Under the pieces are notes generated by a model. That model was not told the origin of the DNA, did no database searches, and worked only from the letters and a program-made list of their open reading frames with translations. 64,000 nt of DNA, taken from positions 520,001-584,000 of the forward strand of contig RPFO01000299.1 in the NCBI GenBank assembly GCA_009746045.1. Reading direction: 5' to 3'. This document shows, in pieces, positions 1,683 through 22,690 of this stretch. A program made the position numbers and the translations under genes. Source of the DNA: Mesostigma viride (Eukaryota; Streptophyta; Mesostigmatophyceae; Mesostigmatales; Mesostigmataceae). Position 1 is the stretch's first letter. The number at the start of each line of letters is the position of its first letter.

Positions 1683-2061
1683 AGTTATGCAACACAAAGC
1701 TTGGAATGCTTGGGCACTGCCAAATGGCGTGTGTGTGCTTGAACGACGAGACACCTTGGCATTAGGATAATGTGGCACATATACTGCTGGCCAGCCGTCA
1801 ACGATGGCTGGCCAGACTTTGCGTAAGTTAAACTAACTTACTGATCCTGGACGGACTAACCTATCAGTTACAACCTGATCTAGTCAGTCCTAACATGACA
1901 ACTACAGTCCCGGTACTGAGGTACCGGCTCATCACATACTGAGTACAGCCACGTGTCCATGCCACGACTGTTCTAGCCCAGCACCGTCCCAGTACCCAAT
2001 TGGGCGCCGGCGGTGCTGGCACGTGTCCACTTAGGCTACAGGCGGGAGACTTAGACTAACT
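1683..2061 (-). repeat. Element A 3' LTR
   Basis: This 379-bp copy matches 11925-12303. Its ends form a 5-bp inverted repeat, AGTTA...TAACT, rather than TG...CA. As A lies on the minus strand, this is its 3' LTR. The flank is satellite DNA. Confidence 0.92.
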
Positions 2062-2069
2062 CCCACTTT
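2062..2069 (-). promoter_or_regulatory. Polypurine tract of element A
   Basis: Read on the minus strand, AAAGTGGG directly abuts the 3' LTR. This is the position where a polypurine tract primes plus-strand synthesis. Bases 2070-2444 are 3' untranslated sequence of the element, with no further feature seen. Confidence 0.55.
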
Positions 2070-2444
2070 AAGTTTTCTTTGGGTTTCAACAGAAACACAC
2101 ATAGCCATCAAATGGACGCAGCCATTCCCAATGCCTTAAAAAACTGTCAGATAACCTACTAGGACCCAAAGGTCACCTCACACATGTACAAGAGATGCAT
2201 TAAAAAGGCCCCATGTCTCAAGCATGGTTTCTTAACTGAGTGAGATGGGTGCTCCAGGCCCCAGCATGTCATGGTCATCCAAACAAGTGTCTCACAAAAT
2301 TTTATTCAATAAATAACACATTCATCATGTCCCAACTTTCTAGACCAGTGCTTCTCACTGTCAGAAAACTACCCAGCTGCCACTGCAGCCTTTCAGCTGC
2401 AGTATTAGGCAGGGGGTCATGGGCTAACATGTACAATGTGCCAG

Positions 2445-3836
2445 TCACTTCAGACTGTAACCAGGGTTCATCAACCCATACAAGACCTGGTATTGTGGTC
2501 CTGCTGCTTGTGGCACCTTGGTCAGTGCATCTGCAGCATTGTCTTTGTCCCTGACGTGGGCTTTAGACTCCAGGTACTTGCATTCCTGTTTTAGCACAAT
2601 CCAATCCAGGTCCGAGTGTACAGCCAAAGGATTGGCAAGGAAAGAGATGATAGATTGAGAGTCAGTCAGCAAATGTGCTTTCACTCCTGCAGAGCTACCA
2701 GCCTGGTGTTGAAGCCAGACCAGCAAGTGATTGAGATACCTTGCATGCAAGACAGAAGATACCACAGCCCTGCATTCAGCTACATTGCTACTCACAGCTT
2801 TCCTCTTGTGCAATCTACTGAACCAGGAGACTAGTGACTTCTTCCCACCTTGGTTATGCAGGAAAAACAATCCAGCCTCTCTGGCTTGAACCTTGGTAAC
2901 TACCCTGGACTCCATTGAACTATCCATCATGCACGTGATGTGAATGGGAGTAAACAGGTCCAGTGAGTGAAGCATCAAAGGTGGACCATCATGCAACAAC
3001 TGCTTGATTGCCCGTGCTCCTACCTCCTGTAGTACCTCATCATCTACCCTGCTCACAAAAGCCAGGTGGGGTGCACATGTAGCACATAGCCAACCAAGCT
3101 TGCCTCTAATGGTAGGGCACATGTCAGGGGTGATGTGAACAGGCAGGACATCCAGACAAGACTTAATGTATTCAGCAGAGGCCTGCATGGAACAAACCCA
3201 GCTGCCCTGCTGCTGCAGCAACTCAAGCATCATGCCACAGAACTTGACTGGCTCCTTGCCCAGCTCTAGCTGCTTGCCAATCTCAAAACTGGCAGACACC
3301 TGAGCTATGAAAGCATCCACTGCAGCTCTAGGACCTGAGATTAACTGATCATCCCCATGCCAGACAAACATCATCATTCCATCAGGGTGTGGGATGACAA
3401 ACAGGCAAGGGTCAATGTCATCATAGGTGGCCCCTAGCTTCATGAATACCTCCTGTGCAGACAGCCTAAAAATTTTTGGAGCTGACTGCAACCCTTCAAC
3501 CCCCAGGTTTGGCCTCAACAAGGGTTGAACAATATCCCTGTGCCACACCTTAGGAGTATTCACCACGTATACCTGACCTCTCCAGACCTGCTGTGCTATG
3601 GCAGGGTCCCCCTTTAGAAAGGCTCTTTTGATATCTGTGGCTTTACACACATAATCCTTCCCTGTATTAAGCTGATGCAAAAACAAGGAAAGCAACACCT
3701 TGAGAGACGTTTGCTGAATACCAGGAGTATAAAGCTCAGCCTCTGTCAGCTCTGTAGAGCCCCTGAACTCAGTAACACATGGCCTAGCATGGAAAATGGG
3801 TGGTCCCCCATCAGCCTGAGGTTTATGCTTGCACAC
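2445..3836 (-). CDS. Element A reverse transcriptase and RNase H
   Basis: A 463-residue frame covering the RT and RNase H part of pol. The first RT aspartate lies in TDIKRAFLKGD (Asp68), matching the copia D-x-K-x-AFL-x-GD box. GVEGLQSAPKIF occupies the place of the copia SLYGLKQ-x-PR-x-W box. The catalytic box is FVWHGDDQLI (His160-Asp163), so Gly stands where YVDD has Val. KLGWL, then the RNase H features MMDSS, AECRAV, LTDSQSII and NAADALTK, follow in copia order, and the frame ends near the element end. The frame is open upstream of the Met to about 3859 (KLRLKFVCK), one frame off from the preceding protease frame. The product would copy element RNA into cDNA inside virus-like particles. 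Whether this copy is active is unknown. Confidence 0.88.
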   Translation of the reverse strand: MCKHKPQADGGPPIFHARPCVTEFRGSTELTEAELYTPGIQQTSLKVLLSLFLHQLNTGKDYVCKATDIKRAFLKGDPAIAQQVWRGQVYVVNTPKVWHRDIVQPLLRPNLGVEGLQSAPKIFRLSAQEVFMKLGATYDDIDPCLFVIPHPDGMMMFVWHGDDQLISGPRAAVDAFIAQVSASFEIGKQLELGKEPVKFCGMMLELLQQQGSWVCSMQASAEYIKSCLDVLPVHITPDMCPTIRGKLGWLCATCAPHLAFVSRVDDEVLQEVGARAIKQLLHDGPPLMLHSLDLFTPIHITCMMDSSMESRVVTKVQAREAGLFFLHNQGGKKSLVSWFSRLHKRKAVSSNVAECRAVVSSVLHARYLNHLLVWLQHQAGSSAGVKAHLLTDSQSIISFLANPLAVHSDLDWIVLKQECKYLESKAHVRDKDNAADALTKVPQAAGPQYQVLYGLMNPGYSLK

Positions 3837-3847
3837 AAACTTTAACC

Positions 3848-4570
3848 TTAGCTTCTTGGCCCAGCTGGCATAGCATCAAGAGGAGTCACAGGTGGTGTGT
3901 GTGTGGGACTACGTGCATCTGGAACAACCCACTCCTCCCTGGCTTTGGTAAAAGCCTCCAGCCACTTAAGAAACCCAATCTGCGTCTGGCAGTCCCGTAC
4001 AATATCATCATAGGACAGGGGAGACATGGATGCAACATCCCATCTACCAAGCCCAAACGCTGAAGGGTGTAGCTTTTGAGAGTGTATGAGGTCCTCCACA
4101 CACGGTTCCTGACCTGGGAGGTACTTGGGCTTAACTGCATTGATGGCAGCATCCAACCCAGTGCTAATCTGGCTCAAAGGGATTTTAAAATGATCTAGAG
4201 GCACCTGTCCTACCCCTGCCACACTCAACCTCCCAGCTGAGATGACAACACCAGGGTAAGATACAAAAGGTTCCCCTAACAGGGCATTCCCTGAGTAACC
4301 CTCAACCACCTGAAATGGAGTGGGCATACCCAAGATTTGAATGCTCACCTGACCTTTGACCTGCATTTTGGTTTTGCCTGAAAAATCTGACACTCTAGCC
4401 CATGGTGAGGCCTTCATTTTCAGACCAGATACAGCTTCTGCACTGATGATACTCACCTGTGCTTGGGTGTCTACAGCCAAAATACTAGGATCTTGACCTG
4501 CATCCCCTACAGCATTGACCTGTGCTGTACCTGTTGCCACAACTGCTTTAGTGTTGTGTGCCTTGTGCAA
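3848..4570 (-). CDS. Element A retropepsin-like domain between IN and RT
   Basis: A 240-residue frame whose first half reads like a retropepsin: LAVDTQAQVSIIS (Asp34), then about 55 residues on NALLGEPFV..PGVVI, the usual second conserved patch (hydrophobic-LG-x-x-F). The catalytic DTG has Gln in place of Gly. The second half (LSYDDI..DCQTQ..FLKWLEA..A..EW) matches the linker before RT in element B. The Met is probably not a true start: the frame overlaps the integrase frame by 64 bases and joins it by a shift near 4580, and it ends at 3848 just before a shift into RT. In known copia elements protease precedes integrase, so this position is unexpected. Confidence 0.75.
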   Translation of the reverse strand: MHKAHNTKAVVATGTAQVNAVGDAGQDPSILAVDTQAQVSIISAEAVSGLKMKASPWARVSDFSGKTKMQVKGQVSIQILGMPTPFQVVEGYSGNALLGEPFVSYPGVVISAGRLSVAGVGQVPLDHFKIPLSQISTGLDAAINAVKPKYLPGQEPCVEDLIHSQKLHPSAFGLGRWDVASMSPLSYDDIVRDCQTQIGFLKWLEAFTKAREEWVVPDARSPTHTPPVTPLDAMPAGPRS

Positions 4571-5742
4571 GGCCTTAAGAATCTCAGCAAATGACTTCCT
4601 GGGAACGACAGGATCTGCTCTTTTTGTGACTCCTCCAGGTGTGAGGGAGGTGCTACCTGCTGCTCACCCTGTGCACCGTCCTCCTGCCCAGGTGGACTAT
4701 TGGGTTGTAGTGGGGCTGCACTACTGAGGAACACAGGAGCTTCTACTGTGGTGCTAGTGCTTGCATCAATGACGTCCTTAGCCAATTCATTGGGTGAGAT
4801 CAATCCACCAGACTCCTGCTCTGAATCCATGTCCAAGAATTCTACCCCTGACACGTCTGCCAGTGGTGGGTAATAAAGCTTGAGTCTATGCTTGCTGACC
4901 ACACGCTCTCTGTCATGTTGTATAGTGACTGCAGTCCCTTCTTCATGAATTTTGGTGACTACAGCTGGACCGTGCCATCTGGCAGAGTGTGCTCTTCCTC
5001 TGTCACCCTCTCTGAAAAATAACACATGGTCCCCCACTTCAAACACAGGCCTGGCATTGTTTTTGTCTTTCTTTGCCAGCAACTTGGCTAAGTGCTGCCT
5101 TTGTGTGTTGTAGTGAGTGTGTACCTCTGAAGCATAGCTGCCTGACTGAAGGCCAGTTGGGGTGATTTCCCCAAAAGGTGAGGACATTATTGGTTTGGCG
5201 TTTAGCTGGGTAGTCACCCCTGCTGCCCAAGATGCCCTGTCAGCATAGCTACCAGAGTCAGCCAACCTGGATGGCATTTTTCTTATCACATCCCTGATGG
5301 CTCTCATGGTACGTTCTACCAACCCCTGACGTTCATGATCTTGAGCCCCAGACACTTCTATCTTGGGCAGGTCATTCCTGTCCTGGATGCAGAGAAACTG
5401 CTGATCCAGCATTACTTTTTCAATGGGGTGAAAACGTGCCAAGGCTATCTGTAAAGCTCTGTGCAGCTGCTCTTTATCCATCCCAGGCAGGGGCTCCACT
5501 ACCACAAACCTTGACCAGGCATCCTTTATGACTAGGTAGTATACCGTGTCCTTCACCACGTGTATAACATCCCCAACCAGTTTGCCTCTAGCCAGTGGTG
5601 GTGTGGCCACATGCCATTTTCTGGGCTTAGGAGCATATAGCTGACATTGCTCACAGTGCTTACGTACGTGCCTGCACATCTGTTCCAGATCATGGCCTTG
5701 TATTTTATTGGCTAGCCTTTCAGCCACAGCCTCATGGCCCAT
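4507..5742 (-). CDS. Element A integrase
   Basis: A 411-residue frame, open upstream to about 5816. The N-terminal zinc module is LHKVMGHEAV...RKHCEQC, the HHCC pattern of the copia pre-integrase region. The catalytic core has Asp58 (GDVIHV), Asp113 (MLDQQF) and Glu143 (GLVERTM). The last two are 29 residues apart rather than the usual 35. A beta-rich C-terminal part (VGDHVLFFREGD...ARWHGPAVVTKI) resembles the integrase C-terminal SH3-like fold and is shared with element B. A low-complexity acidic and proline-rich stretch follows and then a shift into the protease frame. Known role of the family: inserting element cDNA into chromosomes. Confidence 0.85.
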   Translation of the reverse strand: MGHEAVAERLANKIQGHDLEQMCRHVRKHCEQCQLYAPKPRKWHVATPPLARGKLVGDVIHVVKDTVYYLVIKDAWSRFVVVEPLPGMDKEQLHRALQIALARFHPIEKVMLDQQFLCIQDRNDLPKIEVSGAQDHERQGLVERTMRAIRDVIRKMPSRLADSGSYADRASWAAGVTTQLNAKPIMSSPFGEITPTGLQSGSYASEVHTHYNTQRQHLAKLLAKKDKNNARPVFEVGDHVLFFREGDRGRAHSARWHGPAVVTKIHEEGTAVTIQHDRERVVSKHRLKLYYPPLADVSGVEFLDMDSEQESGGLISPNELAKDVIDASTSTTVEAPVFLSSAAPLQPNSPPGQEDGAQGEQQVAPPSHLEESQKEQILSFPGSHLLRFLRPCTRHTTLKQLWQQVQHRSML

Positions 5743-5810
5743 AACCTTGTGCAGTTGCTCTGCTAGAGCACCATACGTGATTACCTTTTCTGCTGCTGCA
5801 CTAAGGGAAG

Positions 5811-6176
5811 CTATGGTGGGTCACGCATCATGTGTGACAGTGTCATGTCATATGCCACTTCCCAATCCACATCATCACACTCAGGCAACACTTGGCAGAC
5901 AGAAGGTAACAGGAAACCATTTGTGAAAAATGGTGAGGGTAGCTTACAGGTGTCACCCTGGTCTGCCGCCCCCGCGCGGTTGTAGCGCCCTGGCGTGGTC
6001 TTGTTGTGCCTGGGTGCCGTGCAGCGCGCTCCTGCTGCAATGGGGTGACGTGTTTTCCAGCATCCAGGACAAACATCAACGTCAGAACCATAGTCGGGTT
6101 TGCCTTTCCAGCAGTCATCTTTTAGGTGCCCCTTACAAAGGCACCTAGTGCAATGCTTGGTGGGGTCATGAGGCAA
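5811..6176 (-). CDS. Element A gag tail with zinc knuckle-like module
   Basis: The frame contains CTRCLCKGHLKDDC, a CCHC-like knuckle, then CPGCWKTRHP. It is open upstream of the Met to about 6262, where a run of eight G (minus strand) separates it from the gag core frame. Dropping one G would join the two. At its 3' end (stop at 5811) the integrase frame lies in the -1 frame and begins to be open at about 5816, so a -1 shift would be needed for a gag-pol fusion. Likely the nucleocapsid-like RNA-binding end of gag. Confidence 0.7.
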   Translation of the reverse strand: MPHDPTKHCTRCLCKGHLKDDCWKGKPDYGSDVDVCPGCWKTRHPIAAGARCTAPRHNKTTPGRYNRAGAADQGDTCKLPSPFFTNGFLLPSVCQVLPECDDVDWEVAYDMTLSHMMRDPP

Positions 6177-6249
6177 CCTCTTGTCCCCCCCTGCTGGCTT
6201 AGCACCCCCTGGCTTGCTAGCTCCCCCACTTTGTTTTCTGTTTTTATTG

Positions 6250-7011
6250 TTATTGTTCTTTCCCCCCCCTTGTTTCCACCTCCCCCACTTTTGTTGTTTT
6301 TGTTTTTATCCCCCCCATTACCGCCTTTACCTGGGCTACCAGCGACTGCATCTGCTTCTTGGAGAGCCCCGTACCTGAGGCTTCCTCCCCCTTTACCTGC
6401 TTCACCTTTCCCTCCTTGGCTGCAGCAGCAAACGGCTCTAGGCATTGCTGCACATAGGCCATTGCCTTCCTGAAGTCCTCCCACTTATCCTTCAGACCTG
6501 CCAGGATTACTGACAGGGTGGTGGGGTCCAGTTCTGCCTTTTGTAGCCATAGGTGTACTAGGTACTTGGCATTGAGCTTCTTCAGCTCCTCATCTCCCTC
6601 TATGTACATGACATATTTTTTGTTGTCACTCACATAGTCACGCTTATTGACCTTATAGGCCTCTATCCACTGGAAGCCCTTAAGCACTTCTAAGTGCTCC
6701 CCCGTGGTAACAAGTGCCCTAAGATCAACCATGAACTGCGCCCACAACACATTTTCTGCCACGTCTACCCCGCTGCTGGCACGCTTTTGGTACAATTGTA
6801 CCAACTGCTGGATAGGCTTGGCAGATTGATGGATGGGTGTGGACGCACGTAGAGAGGCAAACCAATCACGGACATTGTCGCTAGCATATGCATGTGACAA
6901 CTTAAACAACCACTCCCTAGCTTCGTCCTGGGTATGGCCCTCTGGCAAACCCGGAAACACTAGCTTGTCCTCTTTCTTTTTTGGATCAAACCTGGGCCTA
7001 GTCAAGGCCAT
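6250..7011 (-). CDS. Element A gag core
   Basis: A 253-residue, lysine-rich helical protein frame beginning MALTRPRFDPKKKEDKLVF. It has a pattern seen in retrotransposon gag (EAREWLFKLSHAY, DNVRDWFASL, VLWAQFMVDL, ILAGLKDKWEDFRKAM) but no strong named domain. Its ATG overlaps the stop of the preceding ORF in ATGGCCTTGA, so the two frames are linked by overlap (-1). The stop at 6250 follows a run of eight G at 6262-6269 and is probably the result of a one-base length change or of programmed slippage, because the knuckle lies in the next frame. Confidence 0.65.
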   Translation of the reverse strand: MALTRPRFDPKKKEDKLVFPGLPEGHTQDEAREWLFKLSHAYASDNVRDWFASLRASTPIHQSAKPIQQLVQLYQKRASSGVDVAENVLWAQFMVDLRALVTTGEHLEVLKGFQWIEAYKVNKRDYVSDNKKYVMYIEGDEELKKLNAKYLVHLWLQKAELDPTTLSVILAGLKDKWEDFRKAMAYVQQCLEPFAAAAKEGKVKQVKGEEASGTGLSKKQMQSLVAQVKAVMGGIKTKTTKVGEVETRGGKEQ

Positions 7012-8428
7012 GTTGGAGGTTGTTGTCGTTCCTGCAGTTGGCGGTTGCTGCTGCTGCTGCTGTTGCTGTCGCTGCTGCTGCTGCTGCCGCTCCCCGCCCT
7101 CGTGCCGTGTTGGTGCAGACTCCTGCGTGCCGTGTCCTGCCCCGCCCTGGTTCCCCCCCTCTCCCCGTCATCCGCCCCCTCGTCCCTCCTCCGCTTTGGC
7201 TGGGGTGCGCATGCCTCTGCCTGCGCCCTTCGCTTGGCCGGCTTCAGCGATGCCACTAGCCTGGCCACCGTGTCGGCCAACGTCGCCTGCTCGCCTGGAG
7301 ACAGCGGGGTATCTGCTTCCAGCATGGCTTGCGCCAGCTGAAGCTGATCAATGAGGTCCTCCCTGTTGGACAGGTTAGACGGTCCGGCTTCACCAGGCTG
7401 CCTGTAAACACGCGTGCGTGCGGCAGTGCCATCACGGTTGGTGATGGTCTTCTTAGGCTGCGACAAATAATAAAACATTTGGCTTGCAGAAACATCCTCA
7501 TCCGGCCCAAGGCCAAACTCGACTCTCACCGCTTCACCAAGCGGTCCCCTCACCGCTGTCTTACGTGCATGCTTGAGCATGCGTCGTCGCTGCTTCAGGA
7601 TGCGCTGCTCCATCCTTCCCACATTGGCTTCCCACCGTGCCAGCGAGCGTCTGTAACGTTCCTGCGCCTCCGGCCTGCCAGGCGCCTCCATCTCAGCCAT
7701 GTGCTGCAGCTTCATCGCCTGCGCCTTTTTCCACACCCTGAGTTCGCGGACCATCCGGTCCCGGCGCACCTGGGTGATCGACATTTTGAGCTTGATGCGC
7801 TCCGTCAGCGCGATTTGCCTCACCCGCTCCGCATGCTCGCGCTCCTTCTTGGCCTCTGCCGCGGCCCTCCGCGCCTGCCGACGCTGCTTGTCGGCGTTGA
7901 ACGTCTCCATGCGCTTCTGCGCTTCACGCTCCCGCGCCGTCATTGCCGGGGTCATGAGGATCTCGTCCTCAGCAGATGCCCCCGACGGACCTGTCAAAGA
8001 GAACTCCGACTCCTGATGCACACCTAGGTGTACCTTCGGCTCACGAGACCGACGCAAGCTTTTAAAACATGCAAGGTCCCCCCGACGCTTCACCTCAAAC
8101 TGCTCCTCGCCAGAAGCCAGCTCACTGCTGTGAAACAACGCCCGGCGCACGTTCTCAGCATCCGCCCTCTGCTGGGCGCGAGCACGTGCGTGCGTGTCCG
8201 CGCGCCGAAGCTCCCGCTCCTCGTGCTCAGCCATCGCCCTAGCGAGGCCCTCATCCGCGGCCACCTGCCGCGAGCGTGCGTCGTCCTGCTCCTCGGCTGA
8301 GGAACCAGGCTGGAGCCCATACAGCTCCATGGACTCCTCCTCTGCAGGAGGTGCCGAAGGTCCAACCCCCGCCGCTGCAGCTGTCGGGGCGTAAGGAGGA
8401 CCCCTCGGCCTGTTGACCACAGGCGTGG

Positions 8429-9158
8429 TGTCAGAAAATCTGGCACTGTTTGCCACGTGTGACAACTTTTTTTACTTCTGGACTACAATACTTTTTCATC
8501 CGTTGGTAGCGGGTGGCATTTATTTGTCACTTTAGCAATTAGGATGACATTTGACGTACTTTTGGTCAAGAACCTGATCGTTGGTAGCCAGGGAACCGAG
8601 TGTTACCCTTTGCAATTAGATCAGCTAACTCTTCACCGGAATTGTTTCTAAATATTTGCAATGTTTTGACGATGCTATGTAGAATTTGTGACGAATTTGT
8701 TTAGTCGACAGTTATCATATAAAAAGGTTGTGCCGAACGACAGTACAGCTCGAACATGTAGACACTCATCAGGGTGTCGGCACCTTTATCGAATATTCCT
8801 GAACCTTATCTTCTCGATGATGCTCTAGAACATTCGAGACACCTTATCGGCATCTAGTTCACCTTATCGGCATCTTATCGACATCTTTTCAGCATCAATG
8901 CCTTGGTCGACACAAGATATAAAAACGTAATCTATTTTCTAATGAAATTTACCTTGTTGGTCCAACTCACACCCTTGTTGGGAATTCCTTGTTGGAAAGA
9001 CCTTGTTGGTCGGAGTCGTCACCCTTGTTGGGTCGATTCCCTTGTTGGGAAGGCCTTGTTGGCCATGTCTTTTGTCACTACGCAATTTAATCATTAATAC
9101 AATATATATTGAGGTCGAAACGGCTCAAAGATCTTTCCTCCTCCTCCGTAATTTAACA
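8429..9158 (+). repeat. Element E 5' LTR
   Basis: 730 bp, TG...CA ends. A TATA-like TATAAAAA lies at about 8720 and several CTTATCGGCATC and CCTTGTTGG short direct repeats lie in the second half. It matches 10826-11555. Confidence 0.92.
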
Positions 9159-9171
9159 TGGTATCGAAAGC
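9159..9171 (+). promoter_or_regulatory. Primer binding site of element E
   Basis: TGGTATCGAAAGC begins directly after the 5' LTR and resembles the initiator-methionine tRNA primer site (TGGTATCAGAGC) common in copia elements. Confidence 0.7.
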
Positions 9172-9247
9172 GAGGGGCCACGGCCGACTCCAATATTAAT
9201 TACGCGTACAACATTTCGTCGTTGAAGTCCTGCAGCAGCCGACCAGC

Positions 9248-9359
9248 ACCTGGCCTGCGCACCTAGCCTGCGCACCTGGCCTGCGCACCTAGCCTGCGCA
9301 CCTGGCCTGCGCACCTGGCCTGCGCACCTGGCCTGCGCACCTGGCCTGCGCACCTGGCC
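9248..9359 (+). repeat. 14-bp minisatellite in element E leader
   Basis: About eight copies of CTGCGCACCTGGCC, some with CTAGCC in place of CTGGCC, lie between the primer site and the gag frames. The antisense open frame here is only a translation of this repeat. Confidence 0.85.
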
Positions 9360-9451
9360 AGAAAGCTTTTTCTGGTTAAATATTTGGTAAACGGCAAGAT
9401 TTCATAACTTGTATTTGCCTGACGAAGCCCGGACGCCGCTGGTCGACAGTC

Positions 9452-9874
9452 GTGAGCCTGCGTTTCAAGACGTCCCCATCCAGAGCCCTGCCTGCACCAA
9501 GATTTTTTATGAATCCGTGGTTTCCGCGTGAATCTCGGCGTCTATTCTCGGCAGTACAGCTTTCCCGGCTGCAGGGCGAATCTTTCGGCGAATATTGGGA
9601 GAGAGCTAAAGTCGTTTTCACAGACATTTCCAGAATCTTTCCAGATTTTTTCGAGGAGCACACCTACATCAAGTGGCTTTTGCAAGGCCTACGCGCGGAA
9701 TTTTTCCATTGTCGGTGGTTCAACCACCCTTTTTTCTCTATCAGTCGTCTGCAAAATCTGGTAAACACACGAGCAATATCTTTGAGGGACCTTGCACACC
9801 ATTTTTTGGAACTTTCCAAGCTCCAGCGACACCCGAATCATCATGGCTGCGCCAGCTGCCGCCCGAGAAATTAA
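9452..9874 (+). CDS. Gag-like ORF in element E leader
   Basis: A 140-residue frame containing LQGESFGEYWERAKVVF, FFEEHTYIKWLLQGL and RAEFF. This pattern (GESF-x-E-x-WER ... GL) resembles the retrotransposon gag core of plant gypsy-type elements rather than the copia gag that follows. It overlaps the start of that gag in another frame. Whether it is translated is unclear. It may be a captured gag fragment. Confidence 0.4.
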   Translation: MSLRFKTSPSRALPAPRFFMNPWFPRESRRLFSAVQLSRLQGESFGEYWERAKVVFTDISRIFPDFFEEHTYIKWLLQGLRAEFFHCRWFNHPFFSISRLQNLVNTRAISLRDLAHHFLELSKLQRHPNHHGCASCRPRN

Positions 9875-10750
9875 GGAAAACACTGTATTGACTGCGCTGC
9901 GAGGTCTATCATTCAATGGCTCAGATCCAAAGCAGTTCCCCTTTTTTTTAAAATCAAAGTTGAGGGCCTTTACGACGCCATCGGCTATGATGCAGCCCTG
10001 AGAGGGGAGGCACCTCTGGTCGAAAAGCAGCAAAAGCTCGGCTATGCAAGTCTGGTCGCGGCTTTGGATGGCACAGCCTTGCTCCACGCCGCTCAAGCTC
10101 CCCACAAGTATTTCCACGAGGCCTGGAAAATCTTGTGTGACGTCTATGGACACACGGAAACAACAGCGGCCTACCAAGCCACCACTTTGGATAAACTCCT
10201 GTCTACTGCGTCGATTCCTGGCGACCAAGTCGTGGCTAACATCAACACCACGGAACGCAAGTTCAAGGAATACAACCTGCTGTCCGCTAACCGTCTGCAT
10301 GAGTCGATCCTCGTGACCACCCACCGACGTCGTCTGCCTGCGCAATACGGTCCGGTACTGTCTGCTTACAACCTGCCCGCCGACCTTCCTTGGGCAGATT
10401 ACAAGGCGGCTGTCCTCCGAGCAGAAGACCATCTGCGCATCCACCGTGCTCATCCTGGAGATCGGTCCTCAGGGGCCACCACTGGTGTCTACAACACGGA
10501 AAGCACTCCCATGCCAACGTCATGTCCCCATTGCTCAGGACCTCTGGACGAAACGGTCTTTGCCACTAAGGTGGTGAAGGGGCCCCCCTGCCCACACTGC
10601 AAGAGGCTGGGCCACACCAAGGACAAGTGTTGGGATCTTCATCCTGAGCTGCGCCGGGGTCAGAAGGGTACTGCCAACCTTTCTGAGGACTTGGCCAATC
10701 TCACTCTCAACCAGGAGGCGACGGAACTCCCACCGGGGTTTGCGTTTTGA
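9843..10750 (+). CDS. Element E gag with zinc knuckle (one frame break)
   Basis: Starts MAAPAAAREIKENTVLTALR. After the eight-T run at 9942-9949 the frame must change (-1) to continue as KVEGLYDAIGYDAAL and on through the 10064-10750 frame. The protein has the helical copia gag core (FHEAWKILCDVYGH, TERKFKEYNLL, LPADLPWADYKAAVL) and ends with CPHCKRLGHTKDKCW, a CCHC-type knuckle. About 300 residues in total. The break falls in a homopolymer while the LTRs look identical, so a sequencing error is as likely as a mutation. It would form the particle shell and package element RNA. Confidence 0.75.
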
Positions 10751-10809
10751 TGTAACGGGTGCGTTGGTCCTGGGCCAACCCAGGCCACCCTGACTTTGGA
10801 AACGTGGCT

Positions 10810-10825
10810 GCACTAGTGAGGGGCC
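10810..10825 (+). promoter_or_regulatory. Polypurine tract of element E
   Basis: AGTGAGGGG lies immediately 5' of the right LTR, the expected plus-strand primer position. Confidence 0.55.
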
Positions 10826-14555: not shown

Positions 14556-16235
14556 TTATGTAACTAATGATGAGGATTCAGGCTCCCATTTGGTCATCAT
14601 GGCTTGTCTACGTACATGGATGGCATGTATGTAATTAATGATGAGGATTCAGGCTCCCATGGTGTCATCATGGCTTGTCTACGTACATGGATGGCGATTT
14701 TGTAATTAATGATGAGGATTTAGGCTCCTGGCATGGGGTCATCATGGCCCGTCTACGTACATGGATGGCATTTATGTAATTAATGATGAGGATTTAGGCT
14801 CCTGGCATGGGGTCATCATGGCCCGTCTACGTACATGGATGGCATTTATGTAATTAATGATGAGGATTCAGGCTCCCATGGTGTCATCATGGCTTGTCTA
14901 CCTACATGGTTGGCATTTATGTAACCTGAATCCTCTCATAAAAAAAATGATGAGGATTCAGGCTGAGTCCATTGGTGTCATCATGGCTGGCCTACGTACA
15001 TGGATGTCAAGGAATAGTAAATGATGAGGATTCAGGCTCCCATGGTGTCATCATGGCTGGCCTACGTACATGGATGGCATGTATGTAATTAATGATGAGG
15101 ATTCAGGCTCCATTGGTGTCATCATGGCTGGCCTACGTATGTACATGGATGTCAAAGAAAAAAAAAACGATGAGGATTCAGGCTCCCATGGTGTCATCAT
15201 TGCCCGTGTATGTACATGGTTGGCATTTATGTAATTAATGATGAGGATTCAGGCTCCATTGGTGTCATCATGGCCCGTCTACGTACATGGATGGCATGTA
15301 TGTAATTAATGATGAGGATTCAGGCTCCATTGGTGTCATCATGGCTGGCCTACGTATGTACATGGATGTCAAAGAAAAATAAATGATGAGGATTCAGGCT
15401 CCCATGGTGTCATCATGGCCCGTGTACGTACATGGATGTCAAGGAATAGTAAATGATGAGGATTCAGGCTCCCATGGTGTCATCATGGCCCGTCTACGTA
15501 CATGGATGGCGATTTTGTAATTAATGATGAGGATTTAGGCTCCCAGGGTGTCATCATGGCCCGTCTACGTACATGGATGGCATTTATGTATTTAATGATG
15601 AGGATTCAGGCTCCCATGGTGTCATCATGGCCCGTCCACGTACATGGATGTCAAGGAATAGTAAATGATGAGGATTCAGGCTCCCATGGGGTCATCATGG
15701 CTTGTCTACGTACATGGTTGGCATTTATGTAATTAATGAGGAGGATTCAGGCTCCCATGGTGTCTCCATGGCTGCCAGGCCTAAGTACATGGATGGCCTT
15801 TATGTAAGTAATGATGAGGATTCAGGCTCCCATGGTGTCATCATGGCCCGTCTACGTACATGGTTGGCATTTATGTAATTAATGAGGAGGATTCAGGCTC
15901 CCATGGTGTCATCATGGCCCGTCTACGTACATGGATGTCAAGGAATAGTAAATGATGAGGATTCAGGCTCCCATGGTGTCATCATGGCCCGTCTACGTAC
16001 ATGGATGTCAAGGAATAGTAAATGATGAGGATTCAGGCTCCCATGGTGTCTCCATGGCCCGTCTACGTACATGAATGGCAAGTATGTAATTAATGATGAG
16101 GATTCAGGCTCCCATGGTGTCATCATGGCTGGCCTACGTACATGAATGGCATTTATGTAATTAATGATGAGGATTCAGGCTCCCATGGGGTCATCATGGC
16201 CCGTCTACGTACATGGATGGCATTTTTGTATATAA
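14556..16235 (-). repeat. 70-bp satellite array, inverted orientation
   Basis: The same units as upstream, reversed (ATGATGAGGATTCAGG...CTACGTACATGG). The switch lies near 14540-14575, where a TAATTACATACATGCCATCC linker runs into ATTTATGTAACTAATGATGAGG. About 24 units. The array is cut at TATAA (16231-16235) by element B and resumes at 22691. Confidence 0.92.
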
Positions 16236-16717
16236 AGTTGGTTGGAGACCCATCTAGGGTCCACATGGGTCCTCAGAGATAGAGGATCTTGTACAGATTA
16301 CTACAATATACTTTATTGTAGTATTGGGCCAATGGCTGTACTTCACTAGTACTCGCCAATGGGATAACGCCACGTAGAATATGTGGGCGTCTCCCAGGCC
16401 TCCACGTCACCGGCTGGTCAAGGGCCGGTGTAGTACTGTCAATAGGACTGAGCCGACTATCGGCCTATTATGTATGCGCATCTGCCTTGGTACCTCCTAG
16501 AGGATTCTAGAAGTATCTAACACGCGGCATGCACTGAACTACACGGAATGCATGTCCACGTAGGATATTCAGCAAGACTGATGAAGGTGCCAAGCGCAAT
16601 AGAATATATGCGCAACGAAGACGAATTATGCAGCAACGACAATAACGTATGAGAACAATAAACACAACGTTCATTTCATGCTTTCTGATTTACATCGCAT
16701 TCCATTTATTTGCAACT
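16236..16717 (+). repeat. Element B 5' LTR
   Basis: 482 bp, AGTTG...CAACT ends. Near the 3' end is AATAAA (about 16657), a possible polyadenylation signal. The sequence just inside, TGTATTCATTGCAATG, is the primer-site position and does not match the usual methionine-tRNA primer. Confidence 0.93.
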
Positions 16718-16730
16718 TGTATTCATTGCA

Positions 16731-17972
16731 ATGTCTTCGGACGACAATCTTTCAGAGCAGAGGTCTGGCCCTGGTGAGCACGGACCGGCTCAATTTTCTG
16801 TCGACCCTGGCCCAGGCGAGCACAGGGATGACAATAAGAATATGTCCGACCAGCCCCGGGAGGAGGGCTGCGGGCAGGGAAGTACTAGTAGTGACAACCA
16901 GCGTGCGCGTGATAAAGTGCTTCGGCGGGAGACCTTGCTTCAAGAGGCGAAGCTGCTGTCGGCAATCAAGAAATGGGTTCCAGCCCCGCTGGTGCCTGGT
17001 GCTATTCAAGCAGACCGGGATCGCTTTGTAAGCTCTCTTGGGCCGTTTTTCCGCAGGCTCGCGGGCAACCGAGACATCATTCCGGACTGGCTGGAGTTTC
17101 TTCGTGGAACCCCGCTGGGAGACCGCGAGAAAAACCACCCAGAGTGGATTTCGCTGCTGGATAGAGCACAGCGTCTGCGGTGGTCGCCGTTCGAGTTTCT
17201 GCGCCGAGCGAGGGAGACTTTTCTTCGTTCTATCACTGCCAAAACCTGCGACGAGATCGAGGAATTTGTAGATGCAAAGCCGAAGCCCGGGCAGACCATC
17301 ATCGAGCACCTCAACTCTTACTACGACATGCTGGAGAAGCAGGGGCTCCGGTGGCCTGACGAGGCGGTGAATCTCCGATGGATCCAAAACTGTGCTCTGT
17401 CCGAATCCGAGAAGCGGAATTTGGTCGCCAACTGCCGCGGTTACCTGTGCGACACTCACCGATGCAGAGCTCACCTCAAGGAGCTCCTGACGAATCAAAC
17501 CCGTGTTTCCAGAGAAGGAGGTGCCGCGGAGGTGCCTCGTGTCGCCATGGTGATGGAGCAGCAACGGGAAATCTTCTGCTACAACTGCGGGCAGCCCGGG
17601 CACACACGCCGCGCATGTAAGGGTAAGGTTGTCGCTAATTCTGAGTCCTTCCCTCCCTGCACTTTCTGTAATAGGACTAACCATCTGGCTAAGGATTGCT
17701 ACTTTCGCAAGTGCAAGTCTTGTGGCAATTCTGGACATGATGCGTCTGCCTGCAGGAGCAAGGCGGGCGCTGGACCCAAGGATACCCAGATGGAGGTCCT
17801 CAAGCTGCTGCAGCAGATCTCCCAAGCCGTCAAGAGCGGTGCCCTTCGTGGTGGCGACGCTTCTCAGCCGCGTGGTGGTGACGCTTCCCAGCCGCGTGGT
17901 GGTGATGCTTCTCAGCCGCGGGGTGGCAATACCTCTCGTGGCCGCAAGAGGAAGCAGCAGCAGAAAAACTAG
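16731..17972 (+). CDS. Element B gag with three zinc knuckles
   Basis: The start MSSDDNLSEQRSGPG at 16731 is preferred over an ATG at 16710, which lies inside the LTR. About 413 residues. The middle has a classic retrotransposon gag core (RRARETFLRSI, CDEIEEFVDAK, IIEHLNSYYDMLEKQGL, LRWIQNCALSESEKRNLV). Three CCHC knuckles follow: CYNCGQPGHTRRAC, CTFCNRTNHLAKDC and CKSCGNSGHDASAC. The C-terminus holds four RGGDASQP-type repeats and a basic tail. It ends CAG AAA AAC TAG. The pol frame lies one base back and is open across this stop, so a -1 shift on the A-rich stretch, or reinitiation at 18011, would give pol. Role: particle formation and RNA packaging. Confidence 0.88.
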   Translation: MSSDDNLSEQRSGPGEHGPAQFSVDPGPGEHRDDNKNMSDQPREEGCGQGSTSSDNQRARDKVLRRETLLQEAKLLSAIKKWVPAPLVPGAIQADRDRFVSSLGPFFRRLAGNRDIIPDWLEFLRGTPLGDREKNHPEWISLLDRAQRLRWSPFEFLRRARETFLRSITAKTCDEIEEFVDAKPKPGQTIIEHLNSYYDMLEKQGLRWPDEAVNLRWIQNCALSESEKRNLVANCRGYLCDTHRCRAHLKELLTNQTRVSREGGAAEVPRVAMVMEQQREIFCYNCGQPGHTRRACKGKVVANSESFPPCTFCNRTNHLAKDCYFRKCKSCGNSGHDASACRSKAGAGPKDTQMEVLKLLQQISQAVKSGALRGGDASQPRGGDASQPRGGDASQPRGGNTSRGRKRKQQQKN

Positions 17973-18010
17973 ATGATCCTCTCTGTTTATATAACCCCTA
18001 CAGCGTCCTT

Positions 18011-21000
18011 ATGGATGCTGATGAGAGTGGACTCATGGCAGATGAGGCCTGCCAGGTGGTAGGGGCTCCAGCAGTAACCCCTACTGACCGTAAAGCTGCC
18101 CCAGTGAGCAGCAGTAAAAGTGCCCCTGTTTGTGGCATTCCTATCCATGCCTGGAATAAAAAGAGTACCCCAGAGGGAACTCTTCCTGTAAATAATACAT
18201 GTGGATCTGCTCCTGGTTGTAGACAGATGCCACATGGTGTTGCCCAGGTGAGCAACGTATCTGTGAACAATACATGTGGTGCAGCTCCTGTTTGTAGCCA
18301 AGCACCCATTGATATTGTTAACAGTCAAGCTCCTCAGAGCAATAATCCTTGTTATATTGATAATAAAAACTTGGACTCTTGCTCTGCCAGGAACGTGGAT
18401 GCCCGTCCATGTCCTGAAGAGCCTGAGCCTAATGATTGTATTAATCTTAGGACTCTGGCTAAGAGTTTGCATGATGCCTGTGGCCATGGAAACAATGCCA
18501 TTAGGCTTGTTCAAGCCATTAATAACAAGGCTCTCTGGCAGGCTTATCAAGATGTCAGAGAACATTGTGTGTGCCAATTGTGTGCTAACAAGCCTTCCAA
18601 ACGTCATGCAAAGCATCCTGCAGATGGTAGGGGTAATCTACAAGCTGATATCCTCTACTTCACCAATTACAGGCAATTGCCTTACTTGGTGGCTGTGGAT
18701 GAATGGTCAGGCTACATTGGAATTGAACCTATGGCAGCAGGGGATGAGAATACTCTCCATGCCGCAGTTCTTGTTATTCTGCAGAAGTTTGCAGTTATTC
18801 ATAAGCTGCAGATGGACTTGCAGTTTAACTGCCTGACCAAATACTCTGATCTGCCTTTCCTAAGGATTGTGGGTCGTGAAGATCACCAAGCCCAAGGCAA
18901 GGTTGACAGATATATACAGGAGCTTAAGAAGTTGGTAATATCCGGGGACTATCCTGAGATGTTTAAACCAACTTTTGCTGTCAGGTGTTTGGGTGCTGCA
19001 AAAGTGGAAAACACCATGAACAACCGTTTTCATACTATCAAGGTGCGTGGTGTTCCACGGCTGGTCTCACCTCGTGGACTAGCAGGTGGCCTCTACCCTG
19101 ATGACATCATGCAGGCATGGAGTAAGCAGAGGTGGGCACAGTATGCTCATCTCTGTGAAAAGGATAAACAGAGAGGAGAATCATTAAAATTTGAGGTGGG
19201 AGACCAGGTGATCTTCCACAAAGAAAATGCTCCTGGTAAACGTGGTTATTGGCAGGGTCCAGGGACCATAACCTCAGTTGACCTGGAGATGAAAACTGCT
19301 GATGTGGTCTGGAATGGGACCACTTATCATCTGGCTTGGAATAGATTGAAGAGAGATCCAATGAACGTTCAAGAAAATCCCCTGGAAATTATGGCCCCTG
19401 AAGAGGCACTTGGATCTCCCAATCTTTCCTGTCCACCTTTGGCCAGTGAACAGGCTGGACTCCAACTACCAGAAAGGGCGGCCTCCCATCAACTGGAGCC
19501 TACTACTCAGCAAGCTCAGCCTAAGACATTGACTGGGATATCACAGGATGATATGGATGAAGCTGACTTGTTGGATAATAGGGTGTCTGATCAGCACCGG
19601 AAGCTCCGGCCGTTGGAACATGGGCTTGAGACCCCTGGGCAGGTGGATAACATATTTCAGTCTGAACAGCCAAAGCTTGGATCCAATTACCCTGGTAATA
19701 AGCCATTGCCCTTGGAGACTGATGGGATTCCAGCCCAAGGAAGACAAGCTGAGGAGGGGTTGTCCAGGTTGAACACTCAGCTCGGCAAGAGAGGCAATCC
19801 TCAAGAGCTTCGGGATATTGTAAAGAAGCTCAAGCCCTCACTAAAGATTGCCAAAATAACTTCTCTTCTAGAGAAGGGCATGGACCTTGATGGCTTTGAT
19901 GTGGATACCAAAGCAGAGGTCTCTGTCACCTCGCCCTTTAATGCTTTGCTGGATAAGTATTCCCTTGAACCCAGTCCATGGACTATTGTCCAAGACTTTG
20001 CGGGTAACACTGATCATCAAGTTCTTGGGAATATCACTATCCCATTCTTGGGTGAGTCTTTGACACTTTGTGTTGTTGATGGCTATAAGGGACCCACTCT
20101 CATTGGCCAGCCATTCTTGGTGACTCCCGGTGTTACCATTGTTGATGGCCCCAATAACACAAAGAGTCTCCTAAAAACCCATTGTGACCCAATTCCTCTG
20201 GAATCATTCAGATGTCTCTTGCCTCTTGAAATGTTCCAGAAGGCAAATTGGAAGACCGCCTGTGTCGGTTCAATAAAAGGAGCAGAATGGGGAAGGGATA
20301 TACCCCCAGCTTCTGAGCTGGTAGAACCCGCCCAGCTCAGTGTGACTTCTCTTGGTCTCACAAAAAGGTCATTTGCTGCTCATAGCCCCATGTCCTTTGA
20401 TGATGTAGACCTGGATTGTCACACTTTCGCTGGCCTTGAGGCCTGGCGAGTAGCATTGGCGCGTGCGCTCCAGGAGTGGCAAACGCTGGATGTTTTTGAA
20501 GGCATTTCAGAACCTCCACCCAATGCTCAAATGCTTCAGTTGCGTTTTGTATGCAAGATGAAGAGCAAGCTTGGTGAGCCTCCCATACCAAACGCACGTC
20601 CAGTCGTGACCCAGTTCCATGGTACTACAGACTTTGATAAGGAGGAGCTGTACACTCCTGGCCTGTCACATCCTGTTCTCAGGCTTATTCTTAGTCTGTA
20701 CCTTGGTGCTTTGGACTATGGCTTGGATTATGGAGCAGAAATTGATGACTTCACCAGGGCCTTTTTGCATGGTGATCCTCAGGTGGCCAGAGCCACTTGG
20801 CAAGCTCAAAGACCCTGTTGTGTTAAGACCCCAGCATGCTGGATAGCTGAAGTAGGTCATCCCTACATGCAGCCTAAAGTGGGCTGGGAAGGACTGGTCA
20901 GCAGTCCAGTCATCTGGTATGAAACCATTGCTCCTGCCATCCAGGAGAGATGTCAGATGCAACAATCTCATCTTGCTTATTGTCTCTTTGTGGGGCAATC

Positions 21001-21940
21001 CAAAGGACAACCCACCTGGGCTACCTTACATGGAGATGATATGCAACGCATTGGTCCCAAGGGATGGTTGAATGAGACCTATAAAAGGCTCAATGACAAG
21101 TCCCCTATTGGTACCAGAGCATGGTTTAGTAAAAACAGCCAGGTACCTTACTGTGGCATTGGCTGTACCCTTTTCCAGGATGACAAAGGATGGCATCTTA
21201 AGCTGCAATCGGCGAAGGGGTATAAAGAAAAAGTAATAACTCAGTTGCCCAAGAGAGTAACTGAGGAGAATGCCCCTACGGTTAAAGGTCAACTGGGTTG
21301 GCTGGCTGCCACAACTAACCCTGACCTGGCAGTACAGAGTAGGATGCCAGACTCTGTTGTTGTAGGAGAAGGAAGGAGGCGCCTGGAGAGCTGCCTCAAT
21401 GAATCTCCTGACTTGGTGTTGTCCGGTGTAGACTGGCATGGGCGCATCATCATAGACGCCTACACAGATGCTAGCCAAGAGTCTAGATCTGCCAACAAGA
21501 TTGGTGCCAGAGCCGGATGCCTGATCACCATCAGGAATGAAGGCAAACAGCCCTCGTTGGTATACTGGTCCAGTAACCTTCAGAGGAGGCGGTTTGCTGG
21601 CATTGACACCGCTGAGTGCAGGGCATACGCCATGTGCATTCGCGATGCCATATACATAAGAGAGCTACTCTTATGGTGTCTGAGTCAGATAAGACCTCAA
21701 CCCGTGATTGATGTCAGGGTTTATTGTGATAATAAGCCCGTGGTCTCTTTTATCAAGAATGAGAGGGCCACTACTACTGACTTGGACTACCTTGTGGCAA
21801 AGGAGTTGTCCAGCCACTGTATAACCATACATCTGCCAGGACACTCAAATCCTGCTGATGCTATGACCAAGCTTCCACGACTGGCCCTTAATGGGTACCA
21901 GTTGCTGCGGTCCATGATGGCTGGGAAACCCTTGTCATGA
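18011..21940 (+). CDS. Element B pol: integrase, retropepsin-like, RT, RNase H
   Basis: 1309 residues, uninterrupted. Residues 1-150 are a Cys/Ser/Pro-rich leader without a domain. Integrase: zinc module LHDACGHG...REHCVCQLC, then Asp213 (QADILYF), Asp269 (QMDLQF) and Asp299 (GKVDRYI), where Glu is expected. The last two are 29 residues apart. A C-terminal module follows (VGDQVIFHKEN...YWQGPGTITSV). Retropepsin-like: DVDTKAEVSVTS (Asp632), then TLIGQPFL..PGVTI. RT: EIDDFTRAFLHGD (Asp912/913), EGLVSSP, and LHGDDMQRIG (His1007-Asp1010). RNase H: DAYTDASQES (Asp1153), AECRAYAM, VYCDNKPVVSF, GHSNPADAMTK. RT and RNase H are copia-like. No other protease is seen between gag and integrase. The frame extends upstream of the Met through the gag stop. 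Confidence 0.9.
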   Translation: MDADESGLMADEACQVVGAPAVTPTDRKAAPVSSSKSAPVCGIPIHAWNKKSTPEGTLPVNNTCGSAPGCRQMPHGVAQVSNVSVNNTCGAAPVCSQAPIDIVNSQAPQSNNPCYIDNKNLDSCSARNVDARPCPEEPEPNDCINLRTLAKSLHDACGHGNNAIRLVQAINNKALWQAYQDVREHCVCQLCANKPSKRHAKHPADGRGNLQADILYFTNYRQLPYLVAVDEWSGYIGIEPMAAGDENTLHAAVLVILQKFAVIHKLQMDLQFNCLTKYSDLPFLRIVGREDHQAQGKVDRYIQELKKLVISGDYPEMFKPTFAVRCLGAAKVENTMNNRFHTIKVRGVPRLVSPRGLAGGLYPDDIMQAWSKQRWAQYAHLCEKDKQRGESLKFEVGDQVIFHKENAPGKRGYWQGPGTITSVDLEMKTADVVWNGTTYHLAWNRLKRDPMNVQENPLEIMAPEEALGSPNLSCPPLASEQAGLQLPERAASHQLEPTTQQAQPKTLTGISQDDMDEADLLDNRVSDQHRKLRPLEHGLETPGQVDNIFQSEQPKLGSNYPGNKPLPLETDGIPAQGRQAEEGLSRLNTQLGKRGNPQELRDIVKKLKPSLKIAKITSLLEKGMDLDGFDVDTKAEVSVTSPFNALLDKYSLEPSPWTIVQDFAGNTDHQVLGNITIPFLGESLTLCVVDGYKGPTLIGQPFLVTPGVTIVDGPNNTKSLLKTHCDPIPLESFRCLLPLEMFQKANWKTACVGSIKGAEWGRDIPPASELVEPAQLSVTSLGLTKRSFAAHSPMSFDDVDLDCHTFAGLEAWRVALARALQEWQTLDVFEGISEPPPNAQMLQLRFVCKMKSKLGEPPIPNARPVVTQFHGTTDFDKEELYTPGLSHPVLRLILSLYLGALDYGLDYGAEIDDFTRAFLHGDPQVARATWQAQRPCCVKTPACWIAEVGHPYMQPKVGWEGLVSSPVIWYETIAPAIQERCQMQQSHLAYCLFVGQSKGQPTWATLHGDDMQRIGPKGWLNETYKRLNDKSPIGTRAWFSKNSQVPYCGIGCTLFQDDKGWHLKLQSAKGYKEKVITQLPKRVTEENAPTVKGQLGWLAATTNPDLAVQSRMPDSVVVGEGRRRLESCLNESPDLVLSGVDWHGRIIIDAYTDASQESRSANKIGARAGCLITIRNEGKQPSLVYWSSNLQRRRFAGIDTAECRAYAMCIRDAIYIRELLLWCLSQIRPQPVIDVRVYCDNKPVVSFIKNERATTTDLDYLVAKELSSHCITIHLPGHSNPADAMTKLPRLALNGYQLLRSMMAGKPLS

Positions 21941-22190
21941 GGAGTAATCTGGGAGCCTGAGCCTAATGCTCCTCCTGTAGGTTTTTATCCCCCTGGAGGT
22001 TTTGTCCTCTCTGGAGAAGAGGTTTTCCTTCAGATTTGGGTTTTCCCTACAGCAGGTTACACCAACCATGCAATGATGAGATGCAAACTCCATAAGACCC
22101 AAGTGAGTCCCCATTGCCCACATATGTGAAAGTGAACTGGCCAGGTGCGGCCGAACATCAATGAATACATCTAAGCCTTATCACTTTCAC

Positions 22191-22208
22191 AAGGGAAAGA
22201 ATGGCTGG
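22191..22208 (+). promoter_or_regulatory. Polypurine tract of element B
   Basis: AAGGGAAAGAATGGCTGG directly precedes the 3' LTR at 22209. The 250 bases between the pol stop and this tract hold no further feature. Confidence 0.6.
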
Positions 22209-22690
22209 AGTTGGTTGGAGACCCATCTAGGGTCCACATGGGTCCTCAGAGATAGAGGATCTTGTACAGATTACTACAATATACTTTATTGTAGTATTGG
22301 GCCAATGGCTGTACTTCACTAGTACTCGCCAATGGGATAACGCCACGTAGAATATGTGGGCGTCTCCCAGGCCTCCACGTCACCGGCTGGTCAAGGGCCG
22401 GTGTAGTACTGTCAATAGGACTGAGCCGACTATCGGCCTATTATGTATGCGCATCTGCCTTGGTACCTCCTAGAGGATTCTAGAAGTATCTAACACGCGG
22501 CATGCACTGAACTACACGGAATGCATGTCCACGTAGGATATTCAGCAAGACTGATGAAGGTGCCAAGCGCAATAGAATATATGCGCAACGAAGACGAATT
22601 ATGCAGCAACGACAATAACGTATGAGAACAATAAACACAACGTTCATTTCATGCTTTCTGATTTACATCGCATTCCATTTATTTGCAACT
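22209..22690 (+). repeat. Element B 3' LTR
   Basis: 482 bp, matching 16236-16717 by eye. Followed by the TATAA target copy and the satellite. Confidence 0.93.

Follow-up and report, generated by a model that had tools for sequence, protein, structure and literature searches.

The order of protein domains in pol defines the superfamilies of retrotransposons with long terminal repeats (LTRs), and surveys may discard elements in which that order is odd. In copia elements pol encodes protease (PR), integrase (IN), reverse transcriptase (RT) and RNase H (RH) in this order, and in gypsy elements the order is PR, RT, RH, IN. Here we examine two LTR retrotransposons, elements A and B, in a 64,000-nucleotide stretch of the genome of the streptophyte Mesostigma viride (assembly GCA_009746045.1, contig RPFO01000299.1, our C1679, positions 520001-584000; hereafter the window). 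We conclude that A and B probably represent a distinct lineage of LTR retrotransposons, in which gag is followed by IN, PR, RT and RH, and the RT and RNase H are of the copia type. The features of the two elements, in window coordinates, are as follows.

16236-22690, plus strand: element B, an intact LTR retrotransposon, with target site duplication (TSD) TATAA at 16231-16235 and 22691-22695
16236-16717, plus strand: 5' LTR of B, AGTT...AACT, 482 bp
16689-17972, plus strand: gag frame of B with three zinc knuckles (Pfam zf-CCHC, E=7.8e-10, three stretches)
17906-21940, plus strand: pol of B, a single frame of 1,344 amino acids (aa) from stop to stop
17963-17969, plus strand: GAAAAAC, candidate -1 frameshift site directly 5' of the gag stop
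18440-19369, plus strand: integrase of B, pol residues 179-488, 31-32% identical to the A integrase
19823-20185, plus strand: retropepsin-like domain of B, VDTKAEVS at 19901 and LIGQPF at 20099 (profile and alignment with A)
20498-21937, plus strand: reverse transcriptase (LHGDD) and RNase H of B (alignment with A; no Pfam match of their own)
22209-22690, plus strand: 3' LTR of B; directly upstream of it ...AAGGGAAAGAATGGCTGG
1683-12303, minus strand: element A, an LTR retrotransposon, with TSD GCCAT at 1678-1682 and 12304-12308
11925-12303, minus strand: 5' LTR of A, AGTT...AACT
6250-7167, minus strand: gag-like frame of A, 305 aa; another frame, 7002-8471, lies upstream
5811-6305, minus strand: zinc-knuckle (CCHC-like) stretch that opens the pol of A (from the sequence; no Pfam match of its own)
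4507-5820, minus strand: integrase of A, with HHCC finger, D,D,E core and C-terminal VGD..W.GP module (by eye), 31% identical to B
3848-4663, minus strand: retropepsin-like domain of A in the interval between IN and RT, VDTQAQVS ... LLGEPF, 31% identical to B
2445-3875, minus strand: reverse transcriptase (WHGDD) and RNase H of A, 34% identical to B
1683-2061, minus strand: 3' LTR of A, AGTT...AACT

The LTRs of A are identical (379 bp each). Those of B match over 483 bases without mismatch, and the 5-bp TSD sets their length at 482 bp. The pol of B lies in the -1 frame relative to gag, with an overlap of 67 nt; the predicted RNA fold downstream of the gag stop and GAAAAAC is unremarkable (z=-1.2). 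The gag products of A and B have no significant match to each other in BLASTP. In the window's copy of A small indels split pol over several frames, and intact copies are found elsewhere in the genome. One of these, L051, has a single 1,287-aa frame that runs from the zinc knuckle, which shares this frame, through IN, PR and RT to RNase H. Pfam places rve at residues 241-302 of it (E=3.9e-5), Peptidase_A2_2 at 612-675 (0.051) and RVT_2 at 813-1012 (9.9e-7), all below the curated cut-offs.

The order integrase, retropepsin-like domain, RT, RNase H, which the original prediction had read from both elements, is borne out by a colinear alignment of A and B that spans 1,184 aa with 30% identical residues, in which B aligns with the L051 frame over residues 179 to 1338; the pol of B is an intact frame of 1,309 aa from its first methionine, as stated at the outset. 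BLASTP of the A frames against the pol of B is likewise colinear (IN 31%, E=2e-41; PR 31%, E=7e-30; RT-RH 34%, E=1e-85), and the protease-like segments of the two elements align at the same place. In the global alignment the PR core is 35% identical (38/108), IN 32% (97/307) and RT-RH 34% (165/480). Identity falls to 16% ahead of IN, to 18% in the IN-PR interval and to 27% in the PR-RT interval, and thus the PR core, as well conserved as IN and RT-RH, stands out as an island from the stretches on either side of it. When the gag and pol frames of both elements were scanned for motifs, no D-[ST]-G turned up ahead of the integrase: the sole D-S-G lies within the A integrase, at residue 350, and the gag of B holds one D-T-Q, neither in a protease-like context. 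As a control, three conventional copia elements of the same genome (L052-L054) carry their protease domain before the integrase.

The assembly (439.9 Mb, 2,243 contigs) was searched with the 121-aa PR core of B, and 150 of 4,242 candidates were scored, the family counts being lower bounds. Besides 73 matches identical over their full length and further B-like copies and fragments, we observed by eye at least three places at 84% identity (B2), at least 12 at 40-41% (D) and at least 12 at 46% (F). A single copy of B2, of D and of F was retrieved, together with a fragment, E, that resembles D; locus E (L078) was rejected as a separate family, since by eye it looks like a shortened element related to D. 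The copy of D, 38% identical to B over 1,264 aa, has IN, PR, RT and RH in one 1,301-aa frame; that of F, 29% identical to B over 1,036 aa, has IN, PR and RT in a frame that stops inside RT. The order IN-PR-RT is therefore found in A, B, D and F, with RNase H included for A, B and D, and RT identity among these four families is 29-47%. The single copies of D and F have LTRs that read AGTT...AACT and, by eye, the TSDs TTAAA (D) and GCCCA (F); the LTR pair is identical in D and 98.4% identical in F. GCTGG stands directly 5' of the 3' LTR in B, D and F. Four families, dispersed copies and shared LTR ends thus support the proposal, originally drawn from A and B alone, that these elements are a lineage of their own in which pol was rearranged. 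That proposal understated the finding: the lineage comprises four families, has been recently mobile, has a pol that is rearranged or chimeric, and carries a non-canonical retropepsin motif and non-canonical LTR ends.

Some further features of these families were noted in passing. Directly after the 5' LTR the sequence is TGTATTCATT in B (16718-16740), TGCATTAAAA in A (11902-11924) and TGTATTGAGA in D (L080), and no TGG-type primer site stands directly after the 5' LTR of these three. The region of the F copy (L077, L082) holds a second LTR-like pair of 332 bp that starts AGTTGAG and continues GTATTCAT; it is possibly a nested member of the A/B/D/F lineage. At the third acidic residue of the integrase (QGxxE; B 18893-18910, L051, L076, L077) A and F have E, B has D and D has N, and the E of GREDH is present in B and D and replaced by Q in A and F. 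As B is plainly mobile despite its D at the QGxxE position, its integrase may use another acidic residue.

In order to place the lineage relative to copia, we compared it with conventional elements of the same genome. A genome search with RVT_2, in which 150 of 1,981 candidates were scored, gave matches of 148-178 bits, all above the cut-off. Four conventional copias were fetched and L052-L054 were scanned with Pfam, L055 being left out as a near copy of L054. All three show the order Pol_BBD (the copia PR region), gag_pre-integrs, rve, SH3_retrovirus, RVT_2, with gag_pre-integrs below its cut-off in 3/3. RVT_2 is also matched, below the curated cut-off, by the RT of A (E=9.9e-7 in L051, 2.1e-6 in the window), D (4.3e-6) and F (0.036), and RVT_1 was not reported by Pfam for A, B, D or F. 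The RT of B lacks a Pfam match and aligns with conventional copia RT-RH at a best E=3.9e-6; all or part of the RT-RH of A and B aligns with L052-L054 at BLASTP E of 1e-3 to 2e-7 and 20-29% identity, with 20-24% in one of two comparisons. The integrases of A and B gave no BLASTP match at E<=10 to the three conventional copia integrases, and the copia-specific modules Pol_BBD, gag_pre-integrs and SH3_retrovirus were not reported by Pfam in A, B, D or F. Because the RT-RH aligns with copia and copia-specific modules are not seen, the sequences indicate that the RT and RNase H of the lineage are copia-type and that its PR probably is not; its integrase is perhaps not evidently copia-type.

Trees of RT and IN were built from seven sequences, with L052-L054 as the copia set and a partial RT for F. 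Both trees are unrooted, and in each a branch with a support of 100 separates A, B, D and F from the conventional copias. The RT phylogeny that had been proposed as a check therefore sets the four families apart from three conventional copias, although it is unrooted and its inner branches are weak (43-44). We suggest that the lineage should be placed beside the copia superfamily, not inside it, until a rooted tree exists, because its pol departs from the order that defines copia.

The altered position of the protease may have arisen in more than one way. There is close to an even chance, though somewhat short of it, that the copia protease was lost and an unrelated retropepsin of the gypsy or retrovirus kind was captured at the IN/RT junction, so that the domain was replaced rather than moved. 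The PR of A matches Peptidase_A2_2, gag-asp_proteas and Asp_protease_2 and not Pol_BBD, as the three conventional copias do; the only PDB matches of a profile of the lineage's PR sequences are proteases, while the profile of the conventional copia PRs finds none; and hhalign, with few sequences to compare, finds no likeness between the two groups of PRs. However, proteases can diverge so fast that a shared ancestry is no longer visible, and the matches are weak and come from shallow alignments.

Retropepsins act as dimers and carry glycine at the third position of the active-site triad, D-[ST]-G; to our knowledge, this glycine is generally regarded as invariant. The six aligned PR sequences (A, B, B2, D, E and F) share V-D-[TS]-[QK]-A-[QE]-V-S, with DTQ in A and F, DSQ in D and E and DTK in B and B2, and the glycine is missing in 6/6. 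Near the C-terminus of PR the motif of two hydrophobic residues and glycine is present (LLGEPF, LIGQPF, IIGQPF or LLGQPF), and the signature common to the four families is D-[ST]-[QK]-A-x-V-S ... [IL]-[IL]-G-[QE]-P-F. The missing glycine is a hallmark of the lineage. The retropepsin-like domain of the original prediction is thus upheld by sequence relationship and not by its triad, which is D-T-K in B and D-T-Q in A; "protease" here means a retropepsin by sequence relationship, with putative catalysis. In the conventional copias of this genome the same position reads D-S-A in two of three (L052 and L053) and D-T-G in the third, and hence the triad position is loose in this genome, with Q or K being the stronger change.

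That Q or K stands in place of glycine throughout the six aligned sequences, which represent the four families, would fit a retropepsin-derived pseudoprotease that has kept the fold and lost catalysis, serving as a structural or dimerisation module in a polyprotein that is cut by a host protease or stays uncut. We consider this unlikely, though not far-fetched. The aspartate, the following Thr/Ser, the Ala and [IL][IL]G are kept in spite of RT identities of 29-47%, no D-[ST]-G with protease-like surroundings appears in the scanned frames of A and B, and D-S-A occupies the same place in the two conventional copias mentioned above. We lean towards a working, if unusual, retropepsin rather than a dead structural one.

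A more far-reaching possibility, which we hold to be rather doubtful, is that the lineage is a new chimera at the level of a superfamily, with a non-copia integrase-protease block set before a copia RT-RNase H and a PR that is active with Gln or Lys in place of glycine. The block would consist of an integrase with the VGD..W.GP tail and a retropepsin of the gypsy or retrovirus kind, and pol as a whole would resemble that of gypsy elements except that the integrase has been brought to its front end. Such a chimera agrees with the BLASTP result at E<=10 that the integrases of A and B lack a match to those of the three conventional copias where the RT-RH has one.

Returning to the lineage with an internal protease, the identity of the PR segment itself requires examination. 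A Pfam scan (24,736 models) was run on the PR segments of A, B, D and F. The PR of A (4200-4591) matches Peptidase_A2_2 (E=0.0018), gag-asp_proteas (0.0029) and Asp_protease_2 (0.044), all below the curated cut-offs, and the same three models appear with other segment ends (0.0015, 0.0044 and 0.048); all three families are aspartic proteases. Nine shuffles of this segment gave five scattered Pfam matches, the best at 0.013, and none to an aspartic protease. A profile of the six PR sequences was compared with 177,635 PDB sequences at E<=10 and found five matches, every one named protease, with a best E=4.2e-4; we take these to be proteases of the HIV, or retroviral, type. The best value must be discounted, since that entry is an engineered tethered dimer, in which one match is counted twice. 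The matched region begins immediately behind the catalytic triad, takes in the tryptophan, flap and IIGRNLL regions and reaches the C-terminus. The profile search proposed for the PR region of B therefore succeeded in part: the six-sequence profile finds only proteases in the PDB, and B alone lacks a Pfam match. Taken together, the matches point to aspartic proteases at modest significance, and on these similarities the segment is very probably a retropepsin.

Besides the missing glycine, several results weigh against this identification. The PR segments of B, D and F alone have no Pfam match; the single domains of the tethered dimer reach E=0.72 and 6.2 and single-domain chains 1.3; the PDB match joins profile positions 33-103 with protease residues 28-99, so that the catalytic Asp lies outside the alignment; PDB searches with single PR sequences or a two-row alignment found no protease; AlphaFold2 models of the B and A PRs, built from two-sequence alignments, have a mean pLDDT of 34; and all sequences of the PR lineage come from one genome. 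The Foldseek search of the A model showed no retropepsin among the matches listed, a result that is meaningless at such pLDDT and was set aside. The NCBIfam scan gave nothing useful, and scans of IMG/VR for relatives confirmed none. A profile of the three conventional copia PRs found no retropepsin in the PDB, and thus even a true copia PR profile of such depth can miss them. A profile of the lineage's own IN found neither retropepsin nor integrase there; the integrases of B, D and F are therefore named through alignment and the rve match of A (E=1.1e-5 in the window, below the curated cut-off), the integrase of B being matched by no Pfam integrase model. A beta domain of unrelated origin, in which D-T-x-A and LLG occur by chance and to which the sub-threshold Pfam scores, the single-domain PDB values near 1 and the low pLDDT could be attributed, nevertheless appears improbable: 3/3 Pfam families matched by the A PR and 5/5 PDB matches of the profile are proteases, and the nine shuffles and two profiles of other domains yielded none.

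Copies of both elements are numerous. For the pol of B, 35 of 9,437 first-look candidates were scored, the window's copy included, and 35/35 are 100% identical, each with an open 1,344-aa frame. Among 30 fetched loci, one of them the window's, 28 show no nucleotide difference in pol, L010 has three differences and L018 one, and in 26/30 the 3' LTR ends in AACT at the exact expected place. The 5' flanks were read at 20/30 loci, with L001, L002, L004, L008, L011, L014, L021 (the window), L025, L026 and L028 excluded. Upstream of pol, seven of these ten (all except L021, L025 and L028) depart from a base-by-base match to B, and hence the 20 loci tested for TSDs are mostly the tidier copies. A 5-bp TSD is found at 20/20 flank pairs, 19 of them exact as determined by script; at the remaining pair (L009 with L035) the LTR end is a variant, and GAATG was read by eye on both sides. 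For the PR of A, 142 of 5,210 candidates were scored; they are 96-100% identical over the matched part, 140 lack an internal stop, and 10/142 lie within a frame of exactly 1,287 aa. AGTT...AACT and a 5-bp TSD are present in nine of these ten full-frame copies, and in the tenth (C1624) the ends are not at the expected place. Two A-family PR copies, at G000:C1646:2046258 and G000:C1435:2376508, lie in open frames of 4,325 aa and 3,019 aa, far exceeding pol. A and B are thus recently mobile and present in large copy numbers, and the genome-wide search for more copies recovered many of both in addition to the diverged families D and F. That an assembly accident, a chimera of the assembly or a decayed remnant created a false order is practically negligible as an explanation, for although the window's copy of A is broken into several frames, many scattered copies of A and B, and one copy of D, have intact single frames as well as differing flanks and TSDs. 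The near-identity of these dispersed copies likewise agrees with the initial view that the order is no assembly accident.

A and B are embedded in arrays of a 70-71-bp satellite, and the window contains the following additional features.

12304-16230, 22693-24613, 26606-27786 and 1519-1682: 70-71-bp satellite arrays, whose orientation switches near 14.5 kb
8429-11555: element C, a third LTR element with LTR pair and TSD, unrelated and nested in A

A site-specific insertion of B into the satellite was considered and rejected, since the 45 bases 3' of the element, read by eye at 30 retrieved B loci with that of the window among them, contain satellite at five loci and none at 25. Element C has identical 730-bp LTRs (TGTCAG...TTAACA) and the TSD CGTGG. 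Its interior is short, with a zinc-knuckle gag-like frame at 9875-10750 (by eye) and no room for a pol; it is a non-autonomous, conventional-looking element. The direct repeats at 25301-26606 and 28472-29777 are identical over 1,306 bp, start 3,171 bp apart and each hold a 381-bp unit twice, and they are probably a recent tandem duplication. Frames near 57-63 kb may, by eye, encode proteins like axonemal dynein, which would fit a flagellated eukaryote as host, and no tRNA genes were found in the window.

The arrangement of the lineage suggests how its proteins could be produced. Translation of the first frame would yield Gag, and frameshifting would yield Gag-Pol (in B a -1 shift, with GAAAAAC as the candidate site), and the polyprotein would be packed with RNA into particles. 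Pol may then dimerise, and the internal PR could release the integrase by a cut on its N side and RT-RNase H by one on its C side, after which the copia-type RT would make cDNA and the integrase would insert it with a 5-bp stagger. As in gypsy elements, PR immediately precedes RT, a position that would at least allow it to release itself.

We found no description of the pol order IN-PR-RT in the open-access library that was searched; Repbase and subscription journals were outside the scope of this search, so a prior description is possible. In a 2019 plant survey, elements with an unexpected order were, according to the available part of the report, removed in every case as likely incorrectly predicted (PMC6317226). 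The present lineage is recently active and has more than 200 scored PR-domain copies, and therefore genuine elements can be lost to a filter on domain order. Two matters become testable with it, domain shuffling in pol and whether a retropepsin works without its active-site glycine.

Several described groups share some traits with this lineage. Ty3/gypsy elements and retroviruses likewise have PR directly before RT-RH. Ty3/gypsy elements (Metaviridae) differ in having the integrase last and an RT of the RVT_1 type, whereas here the integrase comes first and the RT matches RVT_2. The VGD..W.GP C-terminus of the lineage's integrase appears to resemble the GPY/F module. Gmr1-like Ty3/gypsy elements set a precedent for a changed arrangement of pol throughout a lineage, in which, as summarised in part of PMC3587641 (citing Goodwin and Poulter 2002), the integrase has moved before the RT; they combine this with a gypsy RT, in contrast to the copia-type RT and internal protease found here. 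Troyka and the Kuafuorterviruses are new LTR superfamilies recognised by ends other than TG...CA or by odd RT motifs, as far as excerpts of PMC12440569 and PMC11673190 describe them. According to the same excerpts, Troyka is an animal element with CG...CG ends and 3-bp TSDs, and the Kuafuorterviruses are animal elements with the order protease, RT, RNase H, integrase. Diatom copias follow the usual copia order and lack TG/CA ends in 3/26 families, on the evidence of the available part of PMC2806351. Like the lineage, Ty1/copia elements (Pseudoviridae) have an RT of the RVT_2 type with a copia-type RNase H behind it, an integrase before the RT and a 5-bp TSD. Their protease, however, precedes the integrase, whereas in A, B, D and F it follows the integrase, and their LTRs usually, though not always, end in TG...CA where those of A, B, D and F read AGTT...AACT; the D-[ST]-[QK] motif and the absence of matches to the three copia modules further set the lineage apart from them.

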